Below are positions 47,422 to 60,291 of a stretch of DNA of 64,000 nucleotides, in pieces. The DNA lies in assembly GCA_016214055.1 (NCBI GenBank), contig JACRPE010000007.1:1-64000 (forward strand), written 5' to 3'. Under the pieces are notes generated by a model. That model was not told the origin of the DNA and did not search any database. It saw nothing but the letters and a program-made list of their open reading frames with translations. Each line of letters opens with the position of its first letter. The first letter of the stretch is position 1. Source of the DNA: Candidatus Roizmanbacteria bacterium. GTDB lineage: Bacteria; Patescibacteriota; Microgenomatia; UBA1406; GWC2-37-13. Both the position numbers and the translations under genes were made by a program.

Positions 47422-47446
47422 ATTGGTTTTCTGCTACAATATAGTC

Positions 47447-50400
47447 ATGACTGCCCAACAGGAAAACAATCCCGTTAATCCGGAAATAGCCGAGCGGCAA
47501 GCCGCGGCTGATCAAAAAACCGGACAACAACTAGCCGAGGAACTTCTTCGTATGGCGGCAAAGGCAGAGGAAATAAAAAAAACGATTAATGATTCAATAA
47601 AAAAAGGCGAAAAGGTATCTGATGCTTTGGAGGGCTTTAAGGATAATAAATCAACCCCAAAAGGAAAAGCAACTGATGTAAAAAATATGGTACAGGAGGT
47701 ACTTCTTGCGGTGAAAGGCGGCAAAGTGGTATCATCTGAAGCTCAAACAGCCACAGACTCATCAAGTGATTTTGCACAAACAGCACTGAAACAATTGAGT
47801 TCCAAAATGGGGAACGTGGGCGATGTCACCGAGTCTTCTTCTCCCTACTTCTACGAGTTAATTTCCGACATCATCAAAGGTGAAGTAAAAGATAACGCAA
47901 GCTTAGAAGCAGAGTTTAAAAAGATCGGAAACTTAAAGACAGCCTCTCCCGATTTATATAAAAAAGTTCAGGACGCCATGGTACAGACGGTATTATCCAG
48001 TTCAAACATAAGTGAGCAAGAGGCAAAACAGAAGTTTGATGTGGCCCCTCCGCCAATACCTGAGCAACCGGCTCAAAAAAAAGATGAGATTATTCAGAAG
48101 CAGGATGAAGCAGAACAAAAGACAGACGTATCAAAACTTACGGAAAAGGTTGAAAAGCTTACTGATCAAATAGGTGGCCAAAGCAGGGACCCCTTTGAAG
48201 ATATATGGGGACAATATTTTTCAAATTATTTTAATTCAACCGGAGATAAAGTCTTGGTGAGAGCTATTTTTGATCCTGAAGTCTTCAAAACATATATAGA
48301 TGAAAGTAAAGGAGAGGTTGCAAAAAAAATGGGAGTGGATAAAAGTAATGATGATGTGGGTATGAAAGTATCAAAAGACATCGAAAGCAAAATAGTTAAT
48401 CTTTTTGGAAAGTTGTATAAGCGCCTTGATCATGAACGCGCAAGTGAGTTCTTTGAGCAGATAGAGCAACAAGACATCATGAGAGGTATACTACCTGCTA
48501 AAAATATATTGAAACAACGACTTCTTCAACTTGCCAACGGACAGAGTGATGAAGAAAGCTTTGGACTCTATCGGGATGGTGAGCTTGCCTCAGGAACGAA
48601 AGAAATACCCTTTAAGGATAAGGAAGGTAATACAGTATACAAACCTCGTGTCATTATCAGTCCTTATCCAAGACCGGAACCTTCTTCGGTATCAGATTTC
48701 GTCCATTTTCTTGATCAGAAGATTGATACCTATATTGATGCCAGAAGGTATTTTCATGATGCGCGGGCCATATTCTTACATCCAGTCGATAAGGATAAAG
48801 GTTTCTACGCGCAACTGGCGGGTTTTTCAGAACGCATGACCACTGTTGACTTTGATCAAGTGTTTCTCCTTCCTGATGCGAATATTTTTCAGGATGCACT
48901 TGATATATATGAAAAACATGTGGATGAAATGTTCGCGAAAAATGACTGGATACATGCTCCCACCATGTTTCAACAAAAATTAGGGGAAGTTCGCAGTCAA
49001 CTAGAAAATGATGTGTTAAAACAACTTAAACTTGTATATAAGGACGAGGATATGGATGAAGCTAGACTTGAAGCGGCCGTTACGATGGCTGTTGGCGCTT
49101 CACGGGGCATGTTTCTAACTGAAATTGAGAAGGCAGCTTTAGCCGACCCTGCAGTTAATGAAGACGGAAGCATCGCATACTCGAGTTACTATAATAATGA
49201 TACTTCAGCACTCACTCCTTTTAATCCCATGCATAAGTTTTTCCGTTTTCAGGGACCAACAACCACCGATCCCATTCTTTATATGCCTGTGGGGGGAAAG
49301 GATTTCAAGGGTTCTGTTTTTAGCGACCATAGAGAATTATATAAAAAGATGCAGGGATATAAAGATTCCTATATCAATGGCCGGGGGGGGAAGAATTCAG
49401 ACCTCAACGAAGGTGAAGTACTTTTTGCAGATTTCTTGGAAAATATTGGTAAGGTGGGAGGACCCTTACAGCGTAAAGGTTGGAGAACAACCTACATGTT
49501 ACAGCCACTTTACTATAAAGATACAGCGGGAATAAGTGAAGGAAAACAAACAAGTGAAATATTTGATTTTTGTAAAACATGGAAGAGGTTTGAAAATATT
49601 GGCTATGAGGTAGTACAGGATTTTGTCACTAAACTAAAGCCAGATTTTCAGGGCGCATACGAAGGGGGAAAAGGGCTTGCAAATGGACGGTATGTTATAC
49701 AAAAAAAAGAACTCTTTGATTATATTTATACACGGTACTTCAATAATACCGCCGATGGAGACGTGAATCACTATCTCAAAGGTATCCGAAGTGAGATGGA
49801 GAAAAATGTATGGCAGGATATAAAAGCCGGTAAACCTGCCCCGGATGATATCGAGGCGGAAATAGAAACCCGTACTACGATGTTATTCCTCAATCGAACC
49901 CTTGCGCGTCTGGTAGCTCAACGCATACCTTCAAAGATTCTCAGAGTTGATAGAGGCAGATTAAGTAAGGATGGAGTGAGTAAATGGCGAAAAATTGCTG
50001 AGGAAATGTTTTCGGTGAAAGAGTTTGGAGATCAACGAACGGAGAAGTTTGATGTAGTAGTAAAAGATTTAATGTTCGCCGAACAACTGCTCCGAAATAA
50101 AGTTAGTACTCAAATGAGAGAAATAAAAAAATTACCGGAAAGTGAGCACTATAAACTCGGAGAAGTACCATATGAACTAACTCAACAAACAGCAAGAAGT
50201 TTATTGAAAGAGAAAGGATATACGGATGACCAGATACAGAATGTATGTACCTTATTGGGTAAGATTGAAGCTCATTATACCCATGGTAAAGATGGTACCA
50301 AATATCTTGACGGCACATTGCTGAACATGGTACAGGCAGGAGATACCGTGAAAAAAGAATATAAATATACTTTTGGACTTGAAGAATTGGACTTGAGTTT

Positions 50401-51094
50401 CATTCCCTGGCGCGCGGGTGGAAACCGGATGCTACCGCGGGCCATAAGTGATATATCTGATGTTGAGAAAAATGTGGCGGGGGAGATCATGAAATTTCCT
50501 GACGCTTTAAGAAAGATGGCCATAGACGGTAAACATGATATTGGTCCAGTTCTTGAAATACTTGAAAAAGTATATGGATCCTTAATAGGCATCATAAACC
50601 CCGACTATGCACATCGCATGGTGCATCATATGGCCGCCTTGACCATGCAATATTATAAAAAAGATTCACAAGCACGTTGGGCTTATGGATTGTTTGGATT
50701 TGGAAGGAAGAACTCGCTTGCCGCAGAGCGTGCGGGAGGCACTTCTCGCGTATGGGAGTGGGATAGTACTGATATTGACCGCTTCTGCGTAGCGCTTGAA
50801 TCAAGAAATCTCCTTCCCCGATCTCCACATAATCCAAGCAATCCAAAGCCAAGTTATGCACCAGTATATATCAATGTGCCATTTCTAAACAGGGCTATCA
50901 AGCTTCCTGATATATTCAAAAAACGAAAACCCGACTTTGAATGGAGTATAAAAAATCTTAGGGATCAATTTGGAGGTAATTGGAAAGACATTACGTTTGA
51001 CTATATAAACAGATATCTTCCCCTTGTCATCGCCTGGCTCCTCTGGAAATATATCCAAGACGCCCAAAAAGAAGCAGAGGGTAAAAAAAAGTAA
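47447..51094 (+). CDS. Giant tail-anchored protein of a T4SS-like locus
   Basis: A 1215-residue protein. The first 240 residues are Lys/Gln-rich with coiled coil (LTEKVEKLTDQIG) and a Pro-rich patch (PPPIPEQPAQ). The rest is a long globular region rich in Asp, Lys and aromatic residues without recognised motifs; a Trp-rich end (WRAGGNRMLPR, WEWDSTDIDRF) leads to a single C-terminal TM helix (YLPLVIAWLLWKY) and a basic tail. ATG 47447 has TACAAT 6 nt upstream. It precedes a VirB2-like gene, so it may be a cytoplasmic platform. No family recognised. Confidence 0.7.
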   Translation: MTAQQENNPVNPEIAERQAAADQKTGQQLAEELLRMAAKAEEIKKTINDSIKKGEKVSDALEGFKDNKSTPKGKATDVKNMVQEVLLAVKGGKVVSSEAQTATDSSSDFAQTALKQLSSKMGNVGDVTESSSPYFYELISDIIKGEVKDNASLEAEFKKIGNLKTASPDLYKKVQDAMVQTVLSSSNISEQEAKQKFDVAPPPIPEQPAQKKDEIIQKQDEAEQKTDVSKLTEKVEKLTDQIGGQSRDPFEDIWGQYFSNYFNSTGDKVLVRAIFDPEVFKTYIDESKGEVAKKMGVDKSNDDVGMKVSKDIESKIVNLFGKLYKRLDHERASEFFEQIEQQDIMRGILPAKNILKQRLLQLANGQSDEESFGLYRDGELASGTKEIPFKDKEGNTVYKPRVIISPYPRPEPSSVSDFVHFLDQKIDTYIDARRYFHDARAIFLHPVDKDKGFYAQLAGFSERMTTVDFDQVFLLPDANIFQDALDIYEKHVDEMFAKNDWIHAPTMFQQKLGEVRSQLENDVLKQLKLVYKDEDMDEARLEAAVTMAVGASRGMFLTEIEKAALADPAVNEDGSIAYSSYYNNDTSALTPFNPMHKFFRFQGPTTTDPILYMPVGGKDFKGSVFSDHRELYKKMQGYKDSYINGRGGKNSDLNEGEVLFADFLENIGKVGGPLQRKGWRTTYMLQPLYYKDTAGISEGKQTSEIFDFCKTWKRFENIGYEVVQDFVTKLKPDFQGAYEGGKGLANGRYVIQKKELFDYIYTRYFNNTADGDVNHYLKGIRSEMEKNVWQDIKAGKPAPDDIEAEIETRTTMLFLNRTLARLVAQRIPSKILRVDRGRLSKDGVSKWRKIAEEMFSVKEFGDQRTEKFDVVVKDLMFAEQLLRNKVSTQMREIKKLPESEHYKLGEVPYELTQQTARSLLKEKGYTDDQIQNVCTLLGKIEAHYTHGKDGTKYLDGTLLNMVQAGDTVKKEYKYTFGLEELDLSFIPWRAGGNRMLPRAISDISDVEKNVAGEIMKFPDALRKMAIDGKHDIGPVLEILEKVYGSLIGIINPDYAHRMVHHMAALTMQYYKKDSQARWAYGLFGFGRKNSLAAERAGGTSRVWEWDSTDIDRFCVALESRNLLPRSPHNPSNPKPSYAPVYINVPFLNRAIKLPDIFKKRKPDFEWSIKNLRDQFGGNWKDITFDYINRYLPLVIAWLLWKYIQDAQKEAEGKKK

Positions 51095-51889: not shown

Positions 51890-53701
51890 TTATTTCGATG
51901 GTGTTCCAGGAGGAACAGGAGTATTTGATTGTTGCTTATTTCTTTCAGTCTCAGGTGCTCCTGCTCCTCGACCAAACGCATTAGACCATTTATTACCAAA
52001 TACAGCTGTCATACCCAAATTGGCAGTACTAAGTTGGCCAAGTAAACTCATACCACCTGCGCCAGCCGATCCAGCTCCTGCAAAGAAAGTACCGAATCCA
52101 AAGTTGAGAGGTAGATCTTTAATACCAAAGAGCTGTTCTTTGGTTAGTTTAACTAAATCAGGAGTCATAAATACAACTCCCATGCCGATAAAAATAGGGA
52201 GAAGAGAAGGGTCTATAACATTTAAAAAAGGTGGTCTCCAAAAATCACCCACTGATGAAAGTTGATTTGATAACACAAAACCGATGGTAAGAATGGCTAT
52301 CACGATGGGAAAAGTGAAGATGTCAGCCATGAGATGTTTGATCCATGTAGAAAAACTTGATTTACCCGGTACCGCTTCAAACAACAACATAAAAGGAGCT
52401 ATAACAATAAGAAATATAATTTGAAGATAAGCTTTAAAAAGCATAAAAAAAATACGGAAAAAGAGAAATAAAATAGTAAAAAAAATAGCGATTCCAAACA
52501 AGATTGCAAGGAATAATGGTACGAGTTGGAACCCAAGTGAAAAAGATATGGAGCCAATAAGGGGGACGGTTATCAATCTCGTAAGCTTTCCGGTTCCAAA
52601 CGATATAGCTTGTAAATTTTCAACTGATGTACCAGCGGTAATTTGAAGACCAAAATATACTAATGTCATAATAAGGAAACCTCCAACGGTGATTGCTATG
52701 ACTTGAATTAAACCGGATATAAAAGGGGGTAAAGCCGCAAGCATGGTAGTCATGACGGAAGTTCCAATAAAATTTAATTGTCCCCAGCCTGAAAGGAAAG
52801 ATACTCCACCATTTAATGTTGTGTCAACGGCATCAATACCTGTATTAATATTCTGAAAATTAGTATGCTTCATAACATCTAAATTTGCAGGATTATTAAA
52901 AATACTATCCCATAGACTGGTGGCATTACCATTCAAATAATTGTTTTGCATCTTTCCAATATCATAAAAAGCTCCGTTTCCGCTAATCAGGGAGATAATG
53001 ATGGCAATCAACACATACATCATGTCGATTAAAAATCCAGCTATGGCAAATGAAAAAGTGATGAGGAGCATGGCGACGACTATTCTCGGTAATGCATTTT
53101 CAATATTTATTACAGTTTGGGGATTTATTTTCATGCGGAACATGATCATGAAGCCGATTGCGATGAGGACGACGACTAAGAGCATGTAGGAGACATCCCG
53201 AAATACTTTCCAGAGATTCATGATGGGCCGGAGGGACGAAAAACCGATTCCTTCAGATGCATAGGTTTGCGGTACAAATCCGGCATCTTGCAAAGAAGTA
53301 TAAGCCCAGTAGACTCCTGAGGCGGGAGGATTCATGAGAGGGAGCATAAAAAGATTAGTAAGTTGACCAGTCAAACTTTTCGCTTGATATTTGTATGCAT
53401 CAGCCGGATTATCAGTGCAGGTATCTCCCGTAAGGCCACAAATAATGGAGCGGTAGAGTGCGAGCGTTTTCTTTCCCTCTTTTGTTTTTTTCAGTTCAGG
53501 GTTGTTTACCAGTGTATAGAGTTTCAGTCGATTTTGTTGGTAGGTTGTCTGAGCGGGTTTGTTTAAAGTTTTCTTATCTGCTCCGATAAAATGAATAAAT
53601 AAGCTTACTACTATCGCATAAACAAATACTACGAGAAATAGTTTCTTTCCCCATGAAACCGCCGTTCGCAGAATAATTTTCAGGTCAAAAAGAGAGAACA
53701 T
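51890..53701 (-). CDS. VirB6/TrbL-like polytopic protein
   Basis: A 603-residue protein with an N-terminal TM helix (about 16-38), an extracytoplasmic segment with a Cys pair (CGLTGDTC), then six or seven TM helices and a Gly/Ala-rich cytoplasmic tail (FFAGAGSAGAGGMSLLG). The order and the long helix pairs (FPIVIAILTIGFVLS) match VirB6/TrbL-type channel proteins of type IV secretion systems in CPR. Two genes downstream share its strand. Confidence 0.72.
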   Translation of the reverse strand: MFSLFDLKIILRTAVSWGKKLFLVVFVYAIVVSLFIHFIGADKKTLNKPAQTTYQQNRLKLYTLVNNPELKKTKEGKKTLALYRSIICGLTGDTCTDNPADAYKYQAKSLTGQLTNLFMLPLMNPPASGVYWAYTSLQDAGFVPQTYASEGIGFSSLRPIMNLWKVFRDVSYMLLVVVLIAIGFMIMFRMKINPQTVINIENALPRIVVAMLLITFSFAIAGFLIDMMYVLIAIIISLISGNGAFYDIGKMQNNYLNGNATSLWDSIFNNPANLDVMKHTNFQNINTGIDAVDTTLNGGVSFLSGWGQLNFIGTSVMTTMLAALPPFISGLIQVIAITVGGFLIMTLVYFGLQITAGTSVENLQAISFGTGKLTRLITVPLIGSISFSLGFQLVPLFLAILFGIAIFFTILFLFFRIFFMLFKAYLQIIFLIVIAPFMLLFEAVPGKSSFSTWIKHLMADIFTFPIVIAILTIGFVLSNQLSSVGDFWRPPFLNVIDPSLLPIFIGMGVVFMTPDLVKLTKEQLFGIKDLPLNFGFGTFFAGAGSAGAGGMSLLGQLSTANLGMTAVFGNKWSNAFGRGAGAPETERNKQQSNTPVPPGTPSK

Positions 53702-53712
53702 AATTCATTGTA

Positions 53713-54159
53713 CTATTTAAAACTAAATCTATCTAACGGTATTCCCGGGTAATTTTTTTTAAGCCATTCATTGAAGACCGTCTGGTTAGTATTTTTTGGC
53801 GCATTTAACACAACGATAAATTGATCGGTTGAAAAATCAAACGTCATGGTAAAAGACGATTGTGTAAGTGGAGTTTTTTTTCGGAGTTCTCTTTTTTGGG
53901 TAGCCAAATCGGTTTCTTCCTTTGATATATTTTGCTCATCAGATGCTCCGGTACCAATTTTAGGATGAGGGATGAGAGTTGGGGCACGTGACGGTACCGT
54001 TTTGTTATCGAGCTGGACTCGGGTCGGAAGTGGTCCCTGAGTAGGTATCACGACACCGGGCGTTTCGCTTTTATTTTTCGGCAATAGTAAGACCACCACA
54101 ACAAGAATGACTAAAAAGATTGCTGGAATTATGTAGTAGAGTTTTATTTCGGGTTTCAT
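53713..54159 (-). CDS. Anchored protein with a small alpha/beta domain
   Basis: A 148-residue protein with an N-terminal TM helix (residues 9-28), a Pro/Thr linker and a C-terminal domain KRELRKKTPLTQSSFTMTFDFSTDQFIVVLNAP. The same domain occurs in the C39 protein encoded just upstream ([28 protein letters not shown]), so the two are paralogous partners. It overlaps the C39 gene by 4 bp. Function unknown. Confidence 0.65.
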   Translation of the reverse strand: MKPEIKLYYIIPAIFLVILVVVVLLLPKNKSETPGVVIPTQGPLPTRVQLDNKTVPSRAPTLIPHPKIGTGASDEQNISKEETDLATQKRELRKKTPLTQSSFTMTFDFSTDQFIVVLNAPKNTNQTVFNEWLKKNYPGIPLDRFSFK

Positions 54160-55340
54160 TTTTTAACCGCAAAGGCGGCGGCATATTTGGGAAATGGATA
54201 ACGCACGTTCTCATTTATAGGGGGACTTTGGCTTGCACCATAATACGGGTCATACGCCAGCACATTGCCGTTTTCATCGAGACCGGTGACCCAGAAGTAA
54301 TGACCTCCTCCTTTTCCCTCCCTGAACCAAGCTAACACAAAAATAGTCCATCCATTATCCAAGTATGATTTAAAATCACCCCGCACTTCCTCGATACTGT
54401 ATTCAATTCCTGAATAGGGAAGTATATAATCTGATGTCTTGACTCCTCGACTCGTTAATACACTTTTTGCATAACTTAAACCGGTGCCGCAGGCGGCCCA
54501 ACCGTTGGATTTATATATTTCAACCACTTCAGGCGGGGTATATTTTTGATCAATATAGCTTGATAGTATCATCGATACCGTCACCGGTCCGCATCCTGCC
54601 TGACACACGTTACAGCCTTCAGCCAGGGGATAGGAATCATAGGAACCCTGGCACTGAGAGTAATAGACATATCCATTTTGGTTTGACCCGCTGGAAGATA
54701 GATTGATAGACGATTGAGAGGATTGACTTGAAGATAAGATCGGTGTTGCCGTTGGAATTAGAGTTGGGATAAGTGTTGGTACAGGAGTATTTATAACAGG
54801 GGGTTGCAACAATAAGTTAAAAAGAGTCACAATAGTTCCCAACTGTTGCTCCGGACTTTTCGTTGCATAAGGAGTCTGGACTTGTTCCATGGTCTTATCC
54901 GAGATGATAGTTGTTTTTGGGTTGTCAACCAAGAGGGGATAATTTTTTCCTGTAGCAAAAGATGAAAAAGCCTGATCGGCAGAAGGAGTTTTCCTTGTTA
55001 CCACGAGTTTATCTAAGTTTGGGGAGTATTTTAAAATAAAATCGTTTGTCTCAAGGGGTAGCTTCTTCTTCAGTTCATTCATCTGTGAAGTTGCCCTTTC
55101 ATCAGTCAAGTCAACAGAGTTAGAAACGACTGAAGAATTGTTGCCTTGATTTATCGAAGAGGAGGAGCCTCTTGTACGGGTTGATCCGCCTGAGTATTGA
55201 TTCGTTGACACAGAGGTTGGAAAAGGGGAGTTGGGAGGGATATTTTTTGGGGCGGTGAGTGATTGGAGGAGGGAAAGAATGATGAGAATAAAAACGAGAA
55301 TAAAAACACCGACAGCTAAATATTTTTTTGAATTATTCAT
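54156..55340 (-). CDS. Membrane-anchored C39-family peptidase-like protein
   Basis: A protein of about 394 residues: N-terminal TM helix (about 7-28), Ser/Thr-rich linker, the small domain shared with its neighbour, a second Pro/Ser-rich linker, then a C39-like papain fold with [12 protein letters not shown] (Cys about 250), [13 protein letters not shown] (His about 345) and AYDPYYG (Asp about 366). The catalytic triad looks intact. C39 peptidases often cut leader peptides of exported proteins. ATG 55340 is chosen; ATGs at 55370-55373 are alternatives. Confidence 0.82.
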
Positions 55341-55347
55341 GATTGTG

Positions 55348-55376
55348 TTGACAACGGACCGACTTTTCATCATAAT
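55348..55376 (+). promoter_or_regulatory. Sigma-70 promoter of the ClpC-like gene
   Basis: TTGACA (55348-55353), 17-nt spacer, CATAAT (55371-55376), then 6 nt to ATG 55383. A near-consensus leaderless promoter inside the 42-bp divergent gap with the C39 gene. Confidence 0.85.
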
Positions 55377-55382
55377 GAAAAC

Positions 55383-58300
55383 ATGGCCGGCTTCTTTGAT
55401 TTTATAAAAAAACCAACTCAGAATGCAAGTGCAGGTACAGCACCTCAACCCCAAATACCTCAAGTGGTAAAACCCGTCATTCCTCAATCTCCCCAAGTGC
55501 AAAATATCAATAACATCATTGCATCGGTCAATTCTTCAGTGTCTCCACCCGTTAAGCCTGTCAGCGTTCAATCGGTGTCACCCGGTCAATCCGTCAAGCC
55601 ACTCGTGACCCCTGCAAATATCGGCACAAAGCCACTTACATCAAACATTGATGCTCAAAAGAGAGCGGCATTGGATCTCATGACACATCTTACTCAACGT
55701 TCCAACCGTGTATTTTTGTCTGCCCAAACGAAAGCAAAAGAGTTGGAAGATGAGTTCATTGATAGTGAACATTTACTTCACGGCCTGCTTTCAGACGGGG
55801 AAATATATAAGCTTCTTACCGAATTGAAGTTACAACCACAGTTGGTTGAGGCGGAAATTGCGCCACTCTATAAACGGGGAGGAAATAAATTAAACCCACC
55901 GCAAAATTCACCTCGATTAAAAAGGATTTTAGATAACTCACTCGTGGTTGCGCGCAAATTGGGATTTGAATTTATCTCACCCGAACATCTTCTTCTTGCT
56001 TTGTTTGAAGAAGGTGAAGGGATCGGCGCTCGTGTCTTGTCAAAGCTTGGCTTGAAGAAAGAGGATCTAAATAAAATAATTGTAGGAAAAAAAGAAGGCC
56101 TCATGGAAGATCAAAAGGCCGCCGAGAAGAAAAAAAGCAGTATTGAACAGTATACTATCGACTTGACCGCCAAAGCGGCACAAGGCTTACTTGATCCGGT
56201 AGTTGAAAGATATGAGACCATTGAGCGCGTCATCCACATCCTTTCCCGGAGATCAAAAAATAATCCTGCATTAGTTGGAGAGGCGGGTGTGGGAAAGACC
56301 GCAATCGTGGAAGGACTTGCCGAAAAAATAGTTGCAAAGCAAGTTCCCGAGTCGCTTTTGAATAAACGTATTTTGTCACTTGATCTCATGGCGGTGTTAG
56401 CAGGTGCGTCACATCGGGGCGAGTTTGAAGAACGGATGAAGAATCTTCTTGATGAAGTGAAAGCAAACAAAGGTCAGATTATTTTATTCATCGACGAAAT
56501 TCATAACATCATGGGGGCAGGAGGGGGCGAAGGATCCTCTGATGCTGCTAATTTTTTAAAGCCCGCCTTATCTCGGGGTGAGATGCAACTTATTGGCGCA
56601 ACGACTTTGACTGAATATCGAAAATATATCGAGAAAGACCCGGCACTTGAACGGAGATTTCAGCCCATTGTTGTTCCTGAACCGACGGAAGAGCAGGCGA
56701 TTAAAATGTTGAAAGCCATCAAGGGAAAGTATGAAGCATTTCATCGGGTTCAGATTCCCGACTCGGCAATTGAGGCGGCAGTCAAACTTTCCAAAAGATA
56801 TGTGGGAGATAGATTTTTACCGGATAAAGCAGTCGACCTCATAGACGAGGCGGCCTCCGCAGTACGCCTTCCCCTTCTTTCGCTTCCTGAAAATATCAGG
56901 TCCCTTGAGACGCGTATCGCAGAATTAAATCAGGAGACAAAAGAAAGTGAAAAATCGGGAGACCCGGTCAAGGTGCGCGTACTCCATTCAAAAATTGCGG
57001 AGATTACTTCGGAATTAAATGAAAAAAAAGATGATTACAACACGAAAAAGGCGCAGACGACCACTGCCATCTCCGAACAGATAATCAAAGACATCGTATC
57101 CCGTTGGACGGGAATTCCCATCTCAAAAATTACGGGGACCGAGATGGATAAACTTGCCCATCTTGAGGATATCATGCATAAACGGTTAATCGGACAGGAA
57201 GATGCGGTCTCCTCAGTTGCACAAGCGGTGCGGCGTGGTCGTGCAGGACTCAAATCAAGCCAACGTCCGATCGGAAGCTTTGTCTTCTTAGGTCCAACCG
57301 GAACCGGAAAGACTGAGCTTGCCAAAACATTAGCAGACATCCTTTTCGGACAAGAGGAAGCTATGATTCGCTTCGATATGACCGAGTATATGGAAAAACA
57401 CGAAGTTGCCAAGCTCTTAGGGGCACCCCCCGGTTATGTAGGATATGAGGAGGGGGGGAAATTGACTGAGGCGGTGCGACGCAAACCTTATTCAGTAGTG
57501 CTTTTTGATGAAGTAGAAAAAGCGCATCCGGATATTTTCAATATTTTGCTCCAAGTACTTGATGATGGACGTTTAACAGATAATAAAGGTCATACCGTAA
57601 CTTTCAAAAATACCGTTGTTATCTGTACCTCCAACATCGGGTCGCAAGTCATCCAGGCCGAGCTTATGAAATCGGGAAAAGACCAGATTGAGGAACCCAA
57701 CGTTCTTTCAACCTATACTTTTTCTCCCCGAGGGCGCGAAATACTGACAATTGGAAGTAAGGTATTTGAAAAAGAAGGCGAGACCGGGAAGTGGGAAGAA
57801 AAAATGCTCCTCGATTATTTTGCCGGTCAGGAAATAACCGGTGAAGAAAAAGCGGCTTTTCCCATTCACGGCTTTGACACGCAAGCCATGTCAGGAAGCG
57901 GGGTCGAGGCAGTTACCAAAGCCGCTGAGATGTATTACCGGACTTCAACAACAGGTAAATCATGGACTAAAACCACCCTCATTGAATATTTCAAAAAGGG
58001 AGTTGTAATAAACGCACTTCCTGACGCGCCCGATGAACAACTTCCAACCGCGAGTCTCAAGACGCATTGTTTTTCTCCCGATGAAAATGAAACAGTTACC
58101 TACAAAGATAGGTACTGGAAACGGAAGATGAACGCAGACGACTGGCAGACAGGCTTTTTGAAAGATTATTTTGAAGGTCAAACCATTGAAAAAGGAACTT
58201 TTCCTACAACCTATTGGGATATCCATACTTTTTCACCCGCAGGTAAAGAAATTATCGTGGTTGGAGAAGTGGTTTGGTTTAGGATGCCTACTGAAACCAG

Positions 58301-59018
58301 ATGGACCATGCAAAGAACTGATGAGTACTTCGGGAAAGACTTCCCACTTCAAAAACAGGTTGAGGAAAAACTCAAAGTTGACGATGAGATTGAGAAGAAA
58401 AAATTCGGGTTGTTAAAAGAAAAGGTGATGGCGGAGTTACACAAATTTTTCCGCCCCGAACTTATCAACCGGTTTGATGAAGTTATTATGTTTGAGCCGC
58501 TCCGCTTTATTCACATGAAACGCATCGTTGAAATTCAATTAAAGAGTGTTGTGAAGGCTATGGAGGAGCAGGATATGGGATTTAGTTGTACTGAGGCGGC
58601 TGTCAAAGAAATAGTCCGAAACGGCTTTGACCCGGTGTTTGGAGCACGACCGCTTCGACGTGCTATTCAAAAACTGGTTGAAAATCCCATTTCCAGCCTC
58701 ATTATCGAAAAGAAAATGGGCCCGGGAAATCAGGTGGCAGTAGATTTTGACGGTCAGAATTTTGTATTTAACCTGGATAAAGCCGATGGGTCAGCCAGTA
58801 GTTCTAGCAAGAATGCAATAAAAAAATATGTGTGTGAAGTTTGCGCAAACCGGTTTGAAACAGAAATAATCCCGAACTCAACTCCCATATGTTCCAAATG
58901 TGCCAGCAGTAAATTACAGGAATTATATGAAGATGCGGGAAACGCTCCTCCGGTCAAACCTGAGCCTGAAGCGCCGGTCCAAGTCCAGGATCCATCCCTT
59001 CAACCCTCCAAGAGTTAA
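55383..59018 (+). CDS. ClpC/ClpA-like AAA+ unfoldase with a repeat insertion and zinc ribbon
   Basis: A 1211-residue Hsp100 protein: Pro/Gln-rich N-terminus (1-85), Clp N domain (about 90-235), D1 with Walker [14 protein letters not shown] (about 300), a middle coiled coil, and D2 with Walker [14 protein letters not shown] (about 637), [10 protein letters not shown] and sensor CTSNIGS (about 748). Between CTSNIGS and [11 protein letters not shown] (about 1022) there are about 274 residues, against about 40 in B. subtilis ClpC. The extra part holds four imperfect repeats with TFSP-like starts and DYFxGQ-like ends. The usual ClpP-binding VGF/IGF tripeptide is not visible. A C-terminal CxxC...CxxC zinc ribbon (about 1142-1172) is added. 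Confidence 0.92.
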
Positions 59019-59302: not shown

Positions 59303-59977
59303 ATGGATAGTTTTTTATTCGCATTCTTTCTGTTTATCATCGCAATTCCTATACTTTATGCAGTCTCACGGTATATGCTCACTGAATTATTTCTTTTTTT
59401 ACACTTATTTATCCGCAGACGTGACCTCATCTTTTCAACGATTGCCGTCATATTCTTGCCGGGCACGATTCTACACGAACTATCTCATTACCTTACCGCA
59501 ACCATTCTCTTTCTTCAAGTGGGGGAGGTACATATCATGCCATCCTGGAAAGAAAACCATTTACAACTCGGAAGAGTCACCTATAGAAAAGCCGATGTGG
59601 TGAGGTCAATCATCGTGGGAGTTGCCCCTTTTTTTGGAGCTCTTTTTTTCTTTTGGTTCGTGGGAGCATTCCATTTATTCCCCAGTGTTCATATTGCCAT
59701 AACTTTATTTTTCGGTTATCTGTTATTTTCAGTCTCCGCCAACATGTTTTCATCAAAACAAGACCTCATAGATCTCATCTATGTAATACCGATCTGCCTC
59801 ATCGCAGGAGCAGTCTTCTATATCACCAATGTGAAAATATTCGTTTCTATTCCTGACGCATGGCTACAAAACACGGCTGACCTCTTGCAGAGAGTTAATA
59901 TTTATATTACTATTTCAATAGCGATACACACGGTCTTAATTATGGTATTTAAAAGTTTTAAGATCTTCAGAAGATGA
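59303..59977 (+). CDS. HExxH integral membrane protein (M50-like)
   Basis: A 224-residue protein with about six TM helices. LPGTILHELSHYLTATIL carries HELSH (His about 58) in a TM helix, the zinc motif of M50/site-2-type proteases. A second metal-ligand motif like NxxPxxxxDG is not obvious; GVAPFFGALFF is the nearest. It may cut membrane proteins of the same locus. It overlaps the next gene by 4 bp. Confidence 0.7.
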   Translation: MDSFLFAFFLFIIAIPILYAVSRYMLTELFLFLHLFIRRRDLIFSTIAVIFLPGTILHELSHYLTATILFLQVGEVHIMPSWKENHLQLGRVTYRKADVVRSIIVGVAPFFGALFFFWFVGAFHLFPSVHIAITLFFGYLLFSVSANMFSSKQDLIDLIYVIPICLIAGAVFYITNVKIFVSIPDAWLQNTADLLQRVNIYITISIAIHTVLIMVFKSFKIFRR

Positions 59978-60291
59978 GCACTCGTTTACTGGCACAAAAT
60001 ATAGGCGTGGGGGGAGTGCAGATAAAAGGCCCGCTTGAGGGAATCAGTACAATCGGGGATGTAATAAATATTCTTATCCCTTTTGTCATGTCACTTGCCG
60101 GAGTCATGCTATTTCTTGTACTTATCTGGGGCGGGTATGATGTGATGATGTCCCAGGGCACGCCTGAAAAGATGAAGTCTGGTCGGGCAAAGATAACCGC
60201 CGGAGTTGTAGGATTTATCCTCCTCGTCCTTTCGTATTTTTTCACCAAGCTATTAAGCTATATATTTAATATCGGGCAGGGAATATTATGA
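59974..60291 (+). CDS. VirB2-like pilin/membrane subunit
   Basis: A 105-residue protein with two TM helices (about residues 28-55 and 72-98) and the loop MSQGTPEKMKSGRAKITAGV. This is the fourth VirB2-like gene in the window and is most like the one at 12589 (INILIPF near the first helix in both). It is co-translated with the HExxH gene. Confidence 0.65.
   Translation: MSTRLLAQNIGVGGVQIKGPLEGISTIGDVINILIPFVMSLAGVMLFLVLIWGGYDVMMSQGTPEKMKSGRAKITAGVVGFILLVLSYFFTKLLSYIFNIGQGIL

Follow-up and report, generated by a model that had tools for sequence, protein, structure and literature searches.

The window, a 64,000-nucleotide stretch of DNA from a Roizmanbacteria-like genome (Patescibacteria), encodes a ClpC-type double-ring AAA+ protein of 1211 amino acids (aa) in a single uninterrupted open reading frame (ORF; positions 55383 to 59018, forward strand, as are all features of this gene given below). 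On balance, we favor the view that it is a ClpP-independent Hsp100 unfoldase of the ClpC type, in which the ClpP-docking site holds one four-bladed, hemopexin-like propeller that binds a partner or the emerging polypeptide chain. The insertion site, the four repeats, the intact ATPase motifs, and the failure to find ClpP or a proteasome were read from sequence, and the closed propeller is taken from a structural model. No propeller domain was found described for any Clp protein in the open-access literature searched, and the propeller-bearing ClpC thus appears to be a real, new, and undescribed domain architecture of a known machine.

The assignment of the protein is based on the translated ORF, on Pfam matches (Clp_N, AAA, AAA_lid_9, AAA_2, and ClpB_D2-small), and on an orthologue whose best continuous PDB match was ClpC/MecB. 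The Walker motifs of both AAA+ modules (D1 and D2), the sensors, and the arginine-finger segment are all intact, and the D2 Walker A (GPTGTGKT), pore loop (GYVG), and Walker B (LFDEVEK) motifs lie at positions 57291 to 57521. The M-domain region is short and of ClpC length (92 aa, from DEAAS to WTGIP; 56844 to 57119), and a CxxC..CxxC zinc-ribbon-like motif in the C-terminal part (58833 to 58901) is retained in most orthologues. The usual Tyr-type D1 pore loop reads KYRG; at the corresponding position of the D1 pore loop (56400 to 56435), most orthologues, with or without the insert, have a His in place of the Tyr. In one relative (G498, locus L174), the ClpC gene is split over two frames (701 and 635 aa), which reflects either a frameshift or an assembly error.

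The insert comprises 230 aa (57687 to 58376) and is located in a region bordered upstream by the D2 sensor 1 segment TSNIGS (residues 749 to 754; 57627 to 57644) and downstream by the arginine-finger segment FRPELINR (residues 1023 to 1030; 58449 to 58472). The distance from TSN to FRPE is 274 aa in the window ClpC versus 48 to 79 aa in most insertless orthologues; two insertless orthologues (G009 and G059) carry 123 and 156 aa of charged low-complexity filler at the same site. The preliminary description of this DNA had reported about 230 extra residues in four imperfect copies after the segment CTSNIGS, and the repeats R1 (57708 to 57836), R2 (57873 to 58010), R3 (58056 to 58187), and R4 (58215 to 58346), each 43 to 46 aa long, confirm it. 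The similarity between repeats was higher than in all 1000 shuffles for five of the six pairs (z, 5.4 to 12) and was weak only for R2 and R3 (z, 2.8; 16/1000 shuffles). Every one of the 41 complete homologues carries all four repeats, even where its insert is only 28% identical to that of the window, and the repeats are therefore not due to chance. The shuffle test and this recurrence rule out a chance or low-complexity repeat, and the presence of the insert in 41 separate genomes rules out an assembly or frame artifact. The linkers between the repeats vary in length among these homologues. The linker between R2 and R3 (58011 to 58055) is the most highly conserved part of the insert (mean, 3.25 bits, versus 2.6 to 2.9 bits for the repeats themselves), but it is not universal, since it is missing from G006, G036, and G075. 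No significant match to the insert of the window was found in Pfam, PHROG, or PDB sequences, and a domain already known by sequence was thereby ruled out.

AlphaFold2, supplied with an alignment of the 41 homologues, predicted with high confidence (pLDDT, 94.3; pTM, 0.90) that the insert forms one compact, closed four-bladed propeller resembling hemopexin, in which each repeat is a blade of four strands and a short helix. The D2 portion of a combined model was of low confidence. Hemopexin-fold proteins were top-ranked in the Foldseek search with the insert model (1qhu, E value of 7.6e-9; 6ix1, TM of 0.67/0.68), and vitronectin and the hemopexin domains of matrix metalloproteinases (MMPs; TMt of about 0.7) also matched. 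Among viral models, the best three matches are insect-virus proteins with the annotation matrix metalloprotease or metalloproteinase. Other propellers, such as Pizza6 and YCF48, matched too, at lower TM values. The modeled insert shares with the hemopexin-fold domains of MMPs, hemopexin, vitronectin, and plant seed albumins a build of four blades, each with four strands and a short helix (TM of about 0.6 to 0.7), but it is only 9 to 13% identical to them and sits in a cytosolic AAA+ protein, not in an exported one. The PF00045 profile did not match the insert of the window and gave two marginal matches among the 41 homologues (best E value, 0.048). Typical of the PF00045 family are a disulfide that links blade 1 to blade 4 and an ion in the central channel; the insert of the window has a single Cys residue and so can form no internal disulfide. 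The first strand of each blade contains a Tyr or His in an equivalent place (TYTF, DTQ/H, KTHC, and DIHT; 57708 to 58346), and these residues possibly form a ring lining the channel, e.g., as a putative metal site. The initial picture of the insert was one of four small, separate domains displayed below the ring. The four units are indeed plain in the sequence, and the linkers between them differ in length, but the predicted fold is single and compact, the Foldseek matches to four-bladed propellers span the whole insert, and the copy number is four in every complete homologue, making separate domains extremely improbable.

In ClpC, the loop that docks the peptidase is located on the underside facing it (PMC10149685). 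When an insertless orthologue was aligned with Bacillus subtilis ClpC by phmmer, the sequence KYVGFNV of the latter was paired with the residues at which the insert starts, and the alignment of the window D2 with ClpB breaks at the same place. The insertion site is therefore that of the ClpP-docking loop, in agreement with the preliminary description. That description had also noted the lack of a VGF/IGF tripeptide, and no conserved [ILVM]G[FLMY] tripeptide was found among 61 segments; such a tripeptide was present in 8 of them, but its location differed from one to another and was mostly within a variable linker, which rules out a conserved hidden docking loop in the insert. A conserved docking tripeptide was not found in the insertless orthologues either, and the insert is therefore not the cause of the docking loss. 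ClpP (PF00574) was not found in the genome of the window, which is 97% complete by estimate, in a search that was positive in 12 of 14 control genomes. A ClpP overlooked in this genome is possible though unlikely, since nearly all relatives are also devoid of it: a strong ClpP was detected in only 1 of 112 relatives (G099). A second Clp ATPase of this genome contains the LGF loop YNLGFGT, and the detection of this loop in a ClpP-bearing control indicates that a docking loop would have been recognized. Thus, of the proposal that the ring has lost or replaced ClpP docking, the absence of the tripeptide and of a detectable ClpP stands, but the role of the insert as the cause does not. Other relatives have sporadic, weaker ClpP-like matches, the distribution of which does not track the insert. 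One member of the genus of the window (G002) encodes an orphan ClpP-like protein with a GxSxA-type motif (L184:932-1522). No proteasome or HslV family member was found in the genome of the window, and docking to either was rejected on that ground.

The window protein resembles B. subtilis ClpC/MecB in having two AAA+ modules, Clp_N repeats, and a short M-domain region but differs in having a predicted propeller in place of the VGF/LGF loop and no ClpP partner that we could find. The ClpIb subtype of ClpI from Actinomycetota has a short ClpC-like M-domain and no LGF motif and is probably ClpP independent (PMC10149685). Judged by its sequence description, it is similar to the window protein in both respects, although it belongs to another phylum and has about 5 residues at the loop site instead of a predicted propeller of 230 aa. 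ClpB/Hsp104 proteins also lack the ClpP loop, and the window D2 is about equally similar to ClpB and ClpC; however, the window protein has no long M-domain and scores 948 bits against an NCBIfam ClpB cutoff of 1232.

In the reading that we prefer, the motor would run free of ClpP, as an unfoldase or disaggregase, and in the hexamer six propellers would ring the D2 exit face. Judged from its fold and position, this crown may offer a surface to which either a partner or the chain leaving the pore binds, and proteins threaded through the ring would be set free or passed along instead of being degraded. The exit side of ClpC was probably rewired for a partner other than ClpP. The most promising contact for such a partner is the conserved linker joining blades 2 and 3; the search for candidate partners covered the neighboring genes. 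A fold best known from exported proteins would here be at the surface that decides where a Clp unfoldase delivers its substrates. It offers a handle on the role of ClpC after the loss of ClpP in a lineage of very small, uncultured bacteria with reduced genomes and little experimental access.

Insert-bearing orthologues were identified in many genera of the family of the window (f1), in two other families of its order (f2 and f3), and in three further families of the class (f4, f21, and f25). A profile of the insert matched 47 of 373 genomes of the class, a few of them via other proteins, but only 3 in a phylum-wide sample of 380 genomes; a search of genome contigs with the single window sequence matched only three close Roizmanbacteria loci. 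Orthologues without the insert are found in genus g20 and in G005, G010, G017, G026, G027, G031, and G103. A tree of the core, built without the insert columns, requires at least nine changes in insert presence, and a single clade of carriers was ruled out (P = 1.2e-6). The identity of the inserts correlates with that of the core (r = 0.79), and this tracking, together with the distribution, favors one old gain with repeated loss as the history suggested by the sequences. The core tree was a quick one with several open forks, and a history by transfer is also conceivable. The repeated absence shows that the insert is dispensable in some lineages. As several lineages have no propeller, it adds a function and is not essential to the motor. 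No relatives were found in viral contigs, plasmids, or phages, which rules out a mobile or phage origin from these sets, and a defense role was rejected because the PADLOC matches were those of generic AAA+ proteins.

In G075, the syntenic position is occupied by a 352-aa protein consisting of a degraded D2 fragment followed by four blades (L131:6668-7726). Its Walker A motif reads GPTGPAKT, the Walker B motif is lost, and the arginine finger is absent; the other Clp ATPase match in this genome is of another type. This motor-less remnant suggests an independent function for the propeller.

The genes around the window ClpC include those for a VirB6-like polytopic membrane protein (51890 to 53701, reverse strand; assigned by resemblance, with no Pfam match), a C39-type peptidase (54156 to 55502, reverse strand; PF13529), an HExxH membrane protein that is M50-like by motif only (59303 to 59977, forward strand; no Pfam match; a neighbor in both f1 and f25), and a type IV secretion pilin-like protein (59974 to 60291, forward strand; PF18895). 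In several f1 genomes, the locus is adjoined by a protein of 1223 aa (47423 to 51094) that ends in a hydrophobic C-terminal segment and matched no family. In f1, genes for a pilin-like protein, the VirB6-like protein, a small protein, the C39 peptidase, the HExxH membrane protein, a pilin, and RecF lie around insert-bearing and insertless orthologues alike, whereas VirB6-like and C39 neighbors are absent from the carriers in f2, f3, f4, and f21. The expectation that carriers would always lie beside VirB6-like and C39 genes was thus not borne out; the link belongs to the gene and not to the insert, and a tie specific to the insert was ruled out. In f25, the ClpC gene adjoins the genes for PrgI, a protein without an assigned role, and VirB4, with dnaN and in some genomes a dnaA-like gene (both identified by sequence) beyond them and the HExxH protein gene on the other side; in the genome of the window, PrgI-VirB4 is on another contig. 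Families f1 and f25 thus place ClpC beside different parts of a type-IV-secretion-like machine, and the position next to PrgI and VirB4 makes a broader tie of the ClpC lineage to such genes plausible. The presence of YidC and KhpB/jag, of RecF in f1, and of dnaN/dnaA in f25 suggests a location close to the replication origin, and part of the adjacency may therefore be inherited gene order. The VirB4 protein of G566 (L171:932-4489) contains an intein with a LAGLIDADG domain.

These neighborhoods bear on the possibility, refined from an idea in the preliminary description, that the propeller crown docks the unfoldase onto a type-IV-secretion-like membrane complex, into which unfolded substrates would be fed. 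The VirB6-like and pilin genes around the f1 gene, PrgI and VirB4 in f25, and the precedent of Plasmodium HSP101 from the PTEX translocon, an Hsp100 unfoldase coupled at its exit side to a membrane channel (PMC7355975), all speak for such docking. Yet insertless orthologues share the f1 neighborhood, carriers in four families have no VirB6-like or C39 neighbors, and the adjacency may in part be ancestral, and we regard this arrangement as fairly unlikely. The stronger version, in which ClpC ceased to feed a protease and came to feed secretion, with six propellers clamping the unfoldase on the complex, is to our minds quite unlikely. If the propeller did dock a secretion complex, it would provide a bacterial counterpart of the PTEX unfoldase-translocon. 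HSP101 docks via its C-terminal domains to EXP2 strands and has no propeller (PMC7355975). The likeness would be one of working principle only, an exit side coupled to something other than ClpP.

A propeller that is a tolerated or regulatory insertion with no dedicated partner, e.g., a spacer closing the exit or blocking stray peptidases, would fit the charged filler accepted at the same site in G009 and G059 and the repeated loss or gain of the insert. It is nevertheless distinctly unlikely, given the conservation of four blades and of many residues in several families and the retention of all four blades in G075, which has no working motor at that position. Docking of some other peptidase, such as an orphan ClpP-like protein, is very unlikely: weak ClpP-like proteins do occur in some relatives, including the one with the GxSxA-type motif in the genus of the window, but their distribution does not match that of the insert, and the genome of the window has yielded neither a ClpP-like protein nor a proteasome/HslV member. 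A ClpP-independent unfoldase whose propeller binds a partner or the emerging chain remains the more likely reading.

Related blades were also identified outside ClpC. Within the class, they occur in predicted secreted enzymes, namely, a DUF2961 protein (G500), a pectate-lyase-like protein with a dockerin (G013), and a GH42-like protein with a dockerin (G610), and in another class they occur in a membrane-anchored protein of G387 (loci L164:3-2372, L165:262-3225, L166:3635-6034, and L132:6605-7375). The blade matches are strong in G500 and in the G075 remnant, and they cover only parts of blades in G013, G610, and G387. Judged by these matches, the related blades represent a propeller family that appears to be undescribed.
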